From positions 4,526,001 to 4,590,000 of the forward strand of contig NZ_CM001442.1 of assembly GCF_000244915.1 (NCBI RefSeq): DNA of 64,000 nt. The letters run 5' to 3'. The translations under genes and the position numbers were made by a program. This document shows, one piece after another, positions 25,061 through 27,086 of the stretch (within the stretch, counting starts at the first letter, position 1; the number at the start of each line of letters is the position of its first letter). Source of the stretch: Bradyrhizobium sp. WSM471. Lineage in GTDB: Bacteria; Pseudomonadota; Alphaproteobacteria; Rhizobiales; Xanthobacteraceae. The notes beneath the pieces were generated by a model. That model was not told the origin of the DNA. It saw nothing but the letters and a program-made list of their open reading frames with translations, and did no database searches.

Positions 25061-25225
25061 TATAGGGCGATGCGGATCGCTTTTTCACCAGCCCCAAAGA
25101 GGTCCGCATCGCTTCGATCGCCGCGGCGGTACCACCCGTCACGACGCAGCGGCCGACCGATGCCCAAGGTCGGCCGCAAATTCTTTACGATCATCCGGCA
25201 CACTCGCTGGCCGAGGGTTTCGAGC

Positions 25226-25828
25226 ATGACGACAGCCAAACGACGGATCTCGGGATTGCTCGCGATCGCCCTGTCCGCACTCCTCCTCGCGGCGCCGGCG
25301 CGGGCGATCGTGAGCACAGGCACTCCGACCACCCTTCACAGCGATACAGATGGTGACGCTGAGGCCGACCGCCAAGCGGTCAGCCGCGAGATCGAGCGCT
25401 TCCGCAGCTCTTCAATCTCGATCAACCAGGCCATGGCGATTGCGGAAGCCCGTCACGCGGGTGCCACCACGGCGGATGTGAGTTTCGACGGAGCCTCCGG
25501 CGTGCCGGTCTACCGGGTGAAGACCCTGCACAATGACCGGATCTGGCGCCACACCATCAATGCCGCAACCGGCGAGCTCGTCGGCGGCGAAGCCGCCCTC
25601 CCTCTCGCCGAGCTCGACCTCGACGACCGCAGCAACCTCGCAGCGCTCGGTGCCATCAAGCACCGGCTTGCGGATGCCGTGCACGTCGCCGAACGCGCGG
25701 CCTCCGGCAAGGCGATCAGCGGCGGGCTGGTGCGCGAACGCGGTCGGCTGAATTTCGCGATCGTCGTCATCAGTGGCGACAACCTCAAGGAGGTCATCCT
25801 CGAACCGCCGGGCGCCCGGACCAAATAG
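25226..25828 (+). CDS. Secreted PepSY-domain protein (200 aa)
   Basis: I start at ATG 25226, preceded by GAGGG, because it begins a signal peptide (RRISGLLAIALSALLLAAPARA). An in-frame ATG at 25070 is nearer the promoter but puts 52 basic residues first. The middle has a PepSY-like module: ISINQAMAIAEARHAGAT, VPVYRVKTLHNDRIWRHTINAATGELVG. A second helix-strand repeat follows. PepSY proteins are periplasmic and often inhibit proteases or bind membrane components. Regulation by the neighbouring TetR protein is inferred from the operator. Confidence 0.75.
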   Translation: MTTAKRRISGLLAIALSALLLAAPARAIVSTGTPTTLHSDTDGDAEADRQAVSREIERFRSSSISINQAMAIAEARHAGATTADVSFDGASGVPVYRVKTLHNDRIWRHTINAATGELVGGEAALPLAELDLDDRSNLAALGAIKHRLADAVHVAERAASGKAISGGLVRERGRLNFAIVVISGDNLKEVILEPPGARTK

Positions 25829-25856: not shown

Positions 25857-25885
25857 TTGACGGGCGCAAAACTCTCCCGCATAAG
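25857..25885 (+). promoter_or_regulatory. Promoter of the asd leader transcript
   Basis: TTGACG (25857-25862), 17 bases, CATAAG (25880-25885). The expected transcription start is about 25892-25894, at or next to the leader-peptide ATG, so the leader would be translated with almost no 5' untranslated region. Confidence 0.55.
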
Positions 25886-25893
25886 CTCCCGCC

Positions 25894-25965
25894 ATGTTCA
25901 CGACCACCAAACGCACGACTAAAACCACCACGGCCTTCGGGGCCCGGGGAGGCGTGCGCGTGTAG
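25894..25965 (+). CDS. Thr-rich leader peptide of a putative asd attenuator (23 aa)
   Basis: The 23-codon frame from ATG 25894 to TAG 25963-25965 encodes MFTTTKRTTKTTTAFGARGG and three more residues. Eight of 23 residues are Thr and two are Lys, both end products of the pathway that Asd serves. A perfect intrinsic terminator follows 31 bases later and then asd. CGGGGC in codons 15-17 (25938-25943) can pair with GCCCCG of the terminator's 5' arm (25998-26003), which would give an antiterminator when a ribosome pauses at the Thr codons. This is the layout of a classical amino-acid attenuator. It is too short to appear in a standard gene call. Confidence 0.75.
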   Translation: MFTTTKRTTKTTTAFGARGGVRV

Positions 25966-25995
25966 TCGTCGACTAGAACGCAATCCACTCTACCG

Positions 25996-26027
25996 AAGCC
26001 CCGCCCTCGTTGGTCCGGGGCTTTTTT
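25996..26027 (+). terminator. Attenuator terminator before asd
   Basis: AAGCCCCG (25996-26003) pairs perfectly with CGGGGCTT (26016-26023), followed by T to 26027. It stands between the leader peptide and the asd start, 33 bases before the GTG. Confidence 0.85.
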
Positions 26028-26060
26028 GTTGTCTGAATTCTCAAATCAATGGAGGACAAA

Positions 26061-27086
26061 GTGAGTAACGATCCCGTCGTCGCGATTGTCGGCGTCACCG
26101 GTGCGGTGGGCGCCGAATTCATCGCCACCATGGACAAGCGCGGCTTTCGCGTCGGCAAGCTCAAGGCGCTGGCGAGTGCCCGCTCGGCCGGCAAGACGGT
26201 GTCGTTCCGCGGGCAAGACGTCGTCATCGAGGAGCTGACCGAACGCGCCTTCGAAGGCGTCGACATCGCCCTGTTCTCCGCCGGCGGCAGCATCTCCAAG
26301 AAGTTCGCGCCGATCGCGGTCAAGGCGGGTGCCGTCGTCGTCGACAACTCCTCCGCCTTCCGCATGGACCCGAACGTGCCGCTGGTGATCCCCGAGATCA
26401 ACGCGAGCCGCATCCGCGACCACAAGGGCATCATCGCCAACCCGAACTGCGCCGCCATTACCGCGCTCGTGCCGCTATGGCCGATCCACCAGAGCAACCG
26501 CATCAAGCGCGTGATCATCTCGACCTATCAGGCGGCCTCCGGCGCCGGCGCTGCCGCGATGGACGAGCTGGTCGAGTCCACCCGCGCCAACCTCAACGGG
26601 CAGGTTTATACGCCGAAGGTGATGCCGCATCCCTACGCCTTCAACCTCTTCAACCACAACACGGCGATCGACCCCGACACCGGCTACAACGACGAAGAGA
26701 CCAAAGTCATCAACGAAACCCGCAAGATCTTCGAGGACGACAAGATTGCGATCGGCGTCACCTGCGTGCGCGTGCCGGTGTTGCGGGCTCATTGCGAGGC
26801 CATCACCTTCGAATGCGAGAAGCCGATCAGCGAGGATCAGGTCCGCGCCATCATGGCGCGAGCGCCCGGCGTTAAGATCGTCGACGACCGCGCCAGGAAC
26901 TACTTCCCGATGCCGATCGACGCCTCGGGCCAGGACGACGTTCTGGTCGGCCGCATCCGCAAGGACCTCAGCGACCCCTCCGGGCATTCGATCTCGATGT
27001 TCGTGGCAGCGGATCAGCTGCTCAAGGGCGCTGCGCTCAACGCGGTGCAGATCGCGGAGCTCCTGCCGCAGCGCGTGATGGCGTAA
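26061..27086 (+). CDS. asd: Aspartate-semialdehyde dehydrogenase
   Basis: Reduces aspartyl phosphate to aspartate semialdehyde with NADPH, the branch point to lysine/diaminopimelate, threonine, methionine and isoleucine. GVTGAVGAEF is the NADP-binding loop, VVDNSSAFR and PNCAAI the active site (Cys130 nucleophile), and RVPVLRAHCEAI carries the catalytic His. Length (341 aa) is normal. I start at GTG 26061 because GGAGGAC lies 4-10 bases upstream; an in-frame ATG at 26049 would overlap that site. It is probably controlled by the attenuator at 25894-26027. Confidence 0.92.
   Translation: MSNDPVVAIVGVTGAVGAEFIATMDKRGFRVGKLKALASARSAGKTVSFRGQDVVIEELTERAFEGVDIALFSAGGSISKKFAPIAVKAGAVVVDNSSAFRMDPNVPLVIPEINASRIRDHKGIIANPNCAAITALVPLWPIHQSNRIKRVIISTYQAASGAGAAAMDELVESTRANLNGQVYTPKVMPHPYAFNLFNHNTAIDPDTGYNDEETKVINETRKIFEDDKIAIGVTCVRVPVLRAHCEAITFECEKPISEDQVRAIMARAPGVKIVDDRARNYFPMPIDASGQDDVLVGRIRKDLSDPSGHSISMFVAADQLLKGAALNAVQIAELLPQRVMA

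Follow-up and report, generated by a model that had tools for sequence, protein, structure and literature searches.

The asd gene of Bradyrhizobium sp. WSM471 is very probably controlled by a ribosome-mediated transcription attenuator located upstream of it, which would respond to Thr-tRNA and probably also to Lys-tRNA. The sequence parts of such a device are present and conserved among relatives, the strands of its antiterminator co-vary as partners, and its predicted folds switch with the position of a simulated ribosome. Aspartate semialdehyde, the product of asd, is the precursor from which both threonine and lysine are made, so this arrangement would amount to end-product control, and the fact that the sensor codons specify two end products of the pathway was counted in favor of an attenuator. 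Control of asd by threonyl-tRNA charging had been proposed in the initial annotation; conservation and covariation support this proposal, but not for threonine alone, given that lysine is probably sensed too.

About 230 bases separate a PepSY-domain gene (25070-25828) from asd (26061-27086) and comprise a promoter, a 23-codon open reading frame (ORF), and a terminator. Positions are those of the window, i.e., the whole 64,000-nucleotide stretch of DNA that was analyzed, and the features are as follows.

25070-25828: PepSY-domain gene (domain match)
25857..25862, + strand: -35 box TTGACG (sequence; 5/6 consensus bases)
25880..25885, + strand: -10 box CATAAG (sequence; 4/6 consensus bases)
25894..25965, + strand: putative leader peptide ORF MFTTTKRTTKTTTAFGARGGVRV, without Shine-Dalgarno (SD) sequence (counterpart ORF in 80/80 related loci, the best 80 of at least 572)
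25900..25932, + strand: candidate sensor codons 3-13, with 8 Thr and 2 Lys (codon table, 74/81 rows)
25932..25944, + strand: small 1:2 hairpin GGCCU-UCG-GGGCC, competitor of the antiterminator (predicted fold)
25932..25951, + strand: region 2, the predicted antiterminator 5' strand, with core GGGGC 25939-25943 and extension CGG-GGAG 25945-25951 (fold, permuted-partner test)
25958..25981, + strand: small hairpin around the stop codon, GCGU/ACGC and UAGUC/GACUA (predicted fold)
25988..26005, + strand: region 3, the predicted antiterminator 3' strand, overlapping the terminator 5' arm (fold, duplex test)
25995..26027, + strand: intrinsic terminator, hairpin 25995-26024 at -16.9 kcal/mol, U run 26022-26027 (sequence, fold)
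26051..26055, + strand: GGAGG, SD of asd (sequence; inferred from its position before GTG 26061)
26061..27086, + strand: asd (asd-II), aspartate-semialdehyde dehydrogenase, putative regulated gene (NCBIfam and Pfam; regulation inferred)

The initial assignment of the downstream gene to asd holds: NCBIfam models PRK14874 (437 bits) and asd_B (409 bits) match it and Pfam agrees, with the GTG at 26061 as the likely start codon. The promoter that had been placed before the leader is likewise present, its two boxes lying 17 nt apart and the leader ORF starting 8 nt past the -10 box and about 37 nt past the -35 box. Among 104 leaders, the -35 box, taken as the last TTGAC/TTTAC within 60 nt, lies 35–43 nt upstream of the leader ATG in 98 and 35–40 nt upstream in 96, and was not found within 60 nt in the other 6. 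The motif ATAAG occurs 7–8 nt upstream of the ATG in 75/104 leaders and was not found upstream in 24/104. A generic sigma-70 scan, which requires T as the last base of the second hexamer, returned 0 promoter sites in the region; both boxes are nevertheless kept in relatives, and it is this conservation on which the promoter call is based. When the usual distance between -10 box and start site is applied to the box positions, the transcript 5' end is predicted at about 25892-25894, within about three bases of the leader ATG. An SD-like motif was found within 18 nt of the ATG in 1/104 leaders. The suggestion that the leader peptide may be leaderless is thus supported by promoter-to-ATG geometry, and we regard a near-leaderless start as plausible because trpL in S. 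meliloti is leaderless and because 192 start sites coinciding exactly with start codons are given for B. japonicum in the main text of PMC4842269.

The leader ORF occupies exactly the coordinates first assigned to it (25894-25965; 23 codons, with eight Thr and two Lys codons). Among the 1351 start-to-stop frames of 15–40 amino acids in the 64-kb window, counting each start on either strand, it has the highest Thr fraction and no other frame reaches 8/23, and a codon pattern for TTKRTTKTT occurs a single time in the 7.78-Mb genome, at this leader. In a codon table of the 74 (of 81) rows with 23-codon leaders, the 7 rows with other leader lengths being left out, K6 was kept in 74/74, K10 in 73/74, and T11 in 74/74 rows, followed by T5 and T8 (72 each), T9 (70), and T12 (68), and codon 13 encodes Thr in 52 and Lys in 19 rows. 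Third positions of Thr codons vary (ACG/ACC/ACT at codons 3, 4, 5, 8, and 9) with the amino acid mostly kept. Separately, the ORF contains an SD-like GGAGG at 25948-25952, mostly within region 2, which could itself slow ribosomes.

Whether lysine is read at all is the point on which a threonine-only attenuator, with Lys (and Arg) codons that just fill the frame or preserve RNA pairing, would differ from the dual sensor; we consider this alternative unlikely, although it is the best supported of those weighed here. Over 25 lineages, sensor segments (codon 2 through the last Thr/Lys codon) contain 43.7% Thr and 21.4% Lys, and this preponderance of Thr (139 vs. 68 codons) favors it, as does the centroid fold, in which the Arg7-Thr8 codons CGCACG can pair with CGUGCG near the ORF end, so that some codons may serve the RNA. 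The background is 4.0% Thr and 2.5% Lys, a rough estimate from window frames >350 codons in all six frames, antisense included, and the Thr+Lys sum is inflated by selection because leaders outside the genus were recognized partly by their Thr+Lys content. Against a threonine-only device, no sensor codons vary less than K6, K10, and T11 in the genus rows, which were chosen by asd homology irrespective of codon content, and Lys replaces Thr at codon 13 in 19/74 rows. At least one Lys is found in 104/104 leaders, those outside the genus having been picked for Thr+Lys content. Since Lys codons are conserved to the same degree as Thr codons and Lys occurs in every leader, Lys-tRNA charging is probably sensed besides Thr-tRNA charging. 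Met and Ile were not supported as further sensed residues, their frequencies over the 25 lineages (2.8% and 3.1%) being close to background (1.5% and 4.1%); some distant leaders do carry Met/Ile codons (L136, L199-L201).

The perfect 8-bp terminator previously noted at 25996-26027 was confirmed, its arms being AAGCCCCG (25996-26003) and CGGGGCTT (26016-26023), with six T at 26022-26027. A second pairing, CGGGGC (25938-25943) with GCCCCG (25998-26003), had also been noted; this pairing stands, but the predicted antiterminator is longer than these 6 bp and joins 25932-25951 with 25988-26005 through GGC/GCC, GGGGC/GCCCC, CGG/CCG, and GGAG/CUCU pairs. Prediction of both RNA folds, which had been suggested as a check, yielded a terminator and an antiterminator form that share region 3/the terminator 5' arm (a MAFFT alignment of four leaders was left out because the ORF ends were misaligned). 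The folding energy of the whole leader is no better than that of shuffles (z -0.57). In the complete transcript, the terminator fold is favored, at -41.4 vs. -31.5 for the antiterminator fold of RNA that still lacks the last arm; because the terminator fold is more stable once that arm exists, the switch must be kinetic. Other attenuators likewise switch kinetically.

To judge the pairing between regions 2 and 3, 25 lineages (8 from the Bradyrhizobium group, 17 from elsewhere) were hand-picked from the 104 leaders and their partner strands permuted. The native duplexes average -23.6 kcal/mol, compared to -21.6 (sd 0.54) for permuted partners, and only 1/20000 permutations was as good as the native pairing when relatedness among lineages was ignored. 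Native pairing was better than both cross means of the row in 15/25 rows and was not in the other 10. In three lineages the letters differ and yet pair: GGGCUUCGG with CCGAAGCCC in L126, GGGGCUGGG with CCCAGCCCC in L129, and CUUCGGUU with AACCGAAG in L147. The compensatory stem changes expected from an attenuator are therefore found as co-varying antiterminator partners, and they argue for an antiterminator that shares the terminator 5' arm and has been maintained by compensatory change. In a control, shuffled ORF tails also paired often with region 3 (0.70 vs. 0.91 for native ones, with 0/40 shuffle sets as high), and in 7/25 rows at least 14/40 shuffled tails reached or exceeded the native pairing. 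This control is weak because GC-rich tails pair anyway, so we relied on the partner permutation instead.

Ribosome stalling was simulated over the same 25 lineages on RNA made up to region 3, with the front edge of the ribosome assumed to lie 12 nt downstream of the first base of the A-site codon. When codon 8 occupies the A site, the pairing probability between the region-3 core and the ORF is at least 0.77 in 24/25 lineages, and for codon 12 it is that high in 25/25, whereas for the stop codon it is at most 0.12 in 25/25. Values for A sites at codons 14–18 are mixed, one lineage (L148) departs from the pattern at codons 8–10 (0.11, 0.58), and for RNA free of ribosomes the probability of the antiterminator takes values anywhere between 0.00 and 1.00, with no consistent untranslated state. 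In this model, it is the position of the ribosome that decides between the two folds.

Translation, stalling, termination, and the amino-acid response would then be connected in the following way. RNA polymerase would start transcription at 25894 or no more than a few bases away, and a ribosome would initiate the leader peptide on the (near-)leaderless 5' end. When charged Thr-tRNA, and probably charged Lys-tRNA, is scarce, the ribosome would stall within codons 3–13, leaving region 2 (25932-25951) free to pair with the newly emerging region 3 (25988-26005); the antiterminator thus formed would block the terminator, and asd would be transcribed. When Thr- and Lys-tRNA are both plentiful, the ribosome would reach the stop codon and cover region 2, so that the terminator at 25995-26027 could form and transcription would end near 26027.

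Conservation of the Thr codons in relatives was another check that had been suggested, and the leader ORF is present in the window and in 80/80 related loci, the best 80 of at least 572 confirmed stretches (77 Bradyrhizobium, 1 Bradyrhizobiaceae, 1 Xanthobacteraceae, and 1 Frankia). In a later sample, it was found in 5/6 same-genus loci. In genome G393 (L193), where the leader starts at locus position 1336, a base present in its kin is missing near the ORF end, so that the leader frame continues in frame into asd, and we cannot tell whether the missing base is a sequencing error or a real change. A palindromic repeat beginning CATGATCCGGAAAAG was observed between terminator and asd in 14/80 loci (L007, L013, L018, L032, L039, L041, L044, L047, L049, L055, L063, L069, L076, and L082), and explains all 14 long spacers.

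The genome has two full-length asd genes, the window-type gene (asd-II, defined by E at most 1e-112) and a second copy at 45% identity. The second copy is here called vertical because asd at that identity level occurs across the family: asd is present in 185/198 sampled family genomes at E 1e-60 or better, and among the matches listed outside the genus, nearly all are at 44–51% identity. A third asd-like copy lies in two pieces at G000:C1:1458447-1459297 (L003, L004), one piece having two internal stops. In the class sample, asd-II was found in 28/385 genomes (our own genome, one congener, L145, which was unscored because the asd start motif was not found, and 25 scorable genomes), and in the phylum sample in 13/349, all within its own class. 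Among the 25 scorable genomes outside the genus, 16 have the leader by a fixed Thr/Lys criterion (17 with the weaker L140 by eye), and 8 have asd-II without a leader, including L132 and L134, whose ORFs pass a looser filter and fail the fixed criterion. The leader also precedes asd-II in G319 and G087, and two more distant asd copies (G282, 51%; G341, 48%) are without it. Four new asd-II genomes outside the genus came from the phylum sample, of which three have a leader by the fixed criterion and the fourth (L201) has a weaker one by eye, with M, T, I, and K codons. On a protein tree of 33 rows, which has 12/30 open inner branches and includes some long rows, the leader label requires two changes, and the leaderless rows comprise a single seven-member clade, L151, and the vertical outgroup. 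The leader is a feature of an asd subfamily with scattered occurrence in the class and is not confined to Bradyrhizobium.

The same comparisons bear on the possibility that the leader mainly makes trans-acting products (a small peptide and/or a terminated sRNA), with cis attenuation secondary. There is a rhizobial precedent in peTrpL and rnTrpL of S. meliloti, as described in the available text of PMC7298713, and the residues GGVR near the C-terminus hardly vary among the genus peptides. However, the codons in question (19–22; GGA GGC GTG CGC) are nearly fixed in the genus with third positions included, a constancy that fits RNA pairing; outside the genus the C-terminus varies while codon bias and pairing persist; and the leader remains adjacent to asd. 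We therefore consider a mainly trans-acting role improbable. A leader with alternative folds preceding a biosynthetic gene could also be a metabolite-binding riboswitch or a protein-binding leader with an incidental ORF, but conservation lies in codon identity with no aptamer-like core and no Rfam family reached its gathering score in the window (the sole weak match is on the opposite strand, E 0.15, 19.4 bits vs. a gathering score of 70), which makes this reading very unlikely. An ordinary intergenic terminator with a chance ORF is hardly credible: short GC-rich hairpins with T runs are indeed expected and not rare (2 terminator-like matches in the region vs. a shuffle mean of 1.1), but a plus-strand frame with at least 8 Thr arose in 4/2000 dinucleotide shuffles of the region, and ORF, codon bias, and pairing with the terminator are conserved across families.

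The output of the attenuator may not be the same in all lineages. The run of five T after the hairpin is missing in 14/31 rows, all of them distant lineages outside the Bradyrhizobium group. In L136, L138, L140, L143, L144, L146, and L147, a long hairpin, mostly of the GUCUCC...GGAGAC type, covers the asd ribosome-binding site; all of these are without a run of five T except L138, which has one. The SD of asd is predicted to be mostly paired in the window (unpaired 0.25) and in many distant lineages. When region 3 was hidden, the unpaired probability of the SD rose by at least 0.2 in 4/25 scorable rows (L126, L136, L142, and L147; L085 and L086 were left out of this test) and was not raised in the window (0.25 to 0.22). 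That region 4 might free the asd ribosome-binding site in distant lineages, i.e., act by translational control, is offered as an idea, and the contrast between the window and these lineages is weaker because the site is predicted to be mostly paired in the window too.

Vertical asd genes were surveyed in hand-picked genomes. Two of the loci in this comparison with the 104 leaders were short, L173 with only 149 nt and L097 with 440 nt. A Thr/Lys-rich short ORF lies upstream in 30/40 vertical asd genes of the order outside its own family (L152-L191), compared to 1/40 on the opposite strand and 4.5% in shuffles, and in 0/13 genomes of its own family and 1/11 other class members. These ORFs end 69–159 nt (mostly 95–130 nt) before asd and, in the order sample, tend to place the Thr/Lys cluster at the ORF 3' end. 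In 12 vertical-asd leaders inspected by eye, a GCCCC...GGGGC-U-tract terminator like that of the window was not seen; CTCTCCC/GGGAGAG-type repeats occur near the ribosome-binding site in several of these 12. One of the 12 (L171) has a different hairpin followed by four U.

A broader reading, which we put forward tentatively and hold to be possible, is that one near-leaderless leader reads both Thr- and Lys-tRNA charging, and that this module travelled with the asd subfamily through Alphaproteobacteria and was re-plumbed from the terminator switch of Bradyrhizobium to another output, possibly the asd ribosome-binding site, in lineages without U-tracts. To our knowledge, a dual Thr/Lys sensor would be the first leader-peptide sensor of lysine. 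If the attenuator model is right, threonine and lysine supply would be read by ribosome stalling at asd itself, with one leader for two end products, and Bradyrhizobium would be expected to make a short terminated transcript about 134 nt long. Lineages with and without U-tracts would provide a natural series in which to follow changes in attenuator output. The literature searched says little about how rhizobia control the aspartate branch point.

Among known systems, the gammaproteobacterial thrABC leader has a normal Shine-Dalgarno start. Threonine attenuators in proteobacteria are reportedly treated by Vitreschak and colleagues in 2004, who may already mention asd. The initial annotation knew of no described Thr attenuator at asd in this group; this view needs amending, since a possible leader-peptide role was put forward earlier for a Sinorhizobium Thr/Lys sORF (PMC10117765), and holds otherwise, in that no asd attenuator was found in the available text of PMC9320726, PMC5756330, PMC2965389, or PMC1273637, the attenuation treated in the available text of PMC12925634 concerns thrABC, and the main text of PMC4842269 (Bradyrhizobium start sites) has no mention of asd, threonine, aspartate, leader peptide, or attenuation. 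In the accessible portions of the open-access literature, that sORF, SEP5 of S. meliloti, was the only statement found of a Thr/Lys leader at an asd-like gene.

According to the available text of PMC10117765, SEP5 lies in the 5'UTR of an 'aspartate dehydrogenase' gene, has a cluster of six Thr and three Lys codons, is translated as seen by Ribo-seq and Western blot, is called possibly a leader peptide by its authors, and is said to be conserved only in Sinorhizobium. Like the asd-II leader, it is a Thr/Lys sORF before an asd-like gene, and that text gives no RNA structure or mechanism for it. Comparing SEP5 by its description, its gene is probably a vertical asd, with the leader layout of the vertical type. 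The near-leaderless geometry predicted for the asd-II leader resembles that of rhizobial trpL, in which the sRNA/mRNA begins with the leader AUG and a biosynthetic gene is attenuated (the available text of PMC7298713 also gives Bradyrhizobium peTrpL); trpL senses Trp, and no sequence relation between the two was seen. The Caulobacter ilv leader, which carries Ile and Val codons before a branched-chain operon and is read as a transcription attenuator in the available text of PMC4117421, is similarly alphaproteobacterial and uses codons for more than one end product. In E. coli, thrL has eight Thr and four Ile codons and forms the Thr/Ile attenuator of thrABC, where stalling at Thr codons switches between antiterminator and terminator before aspartate-family genes, as proposed for asd-II; that leader uses Ile codons, with no Lys mentioned in the available text of PMC12925634, whereas the asd-II leader combines Thr with Lys, is predicted to be near-leaderless, and precedes another target gene. 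We thus file the asd-II leader as a further leader-peptide attenuator with an unusual pair of sensed codons.
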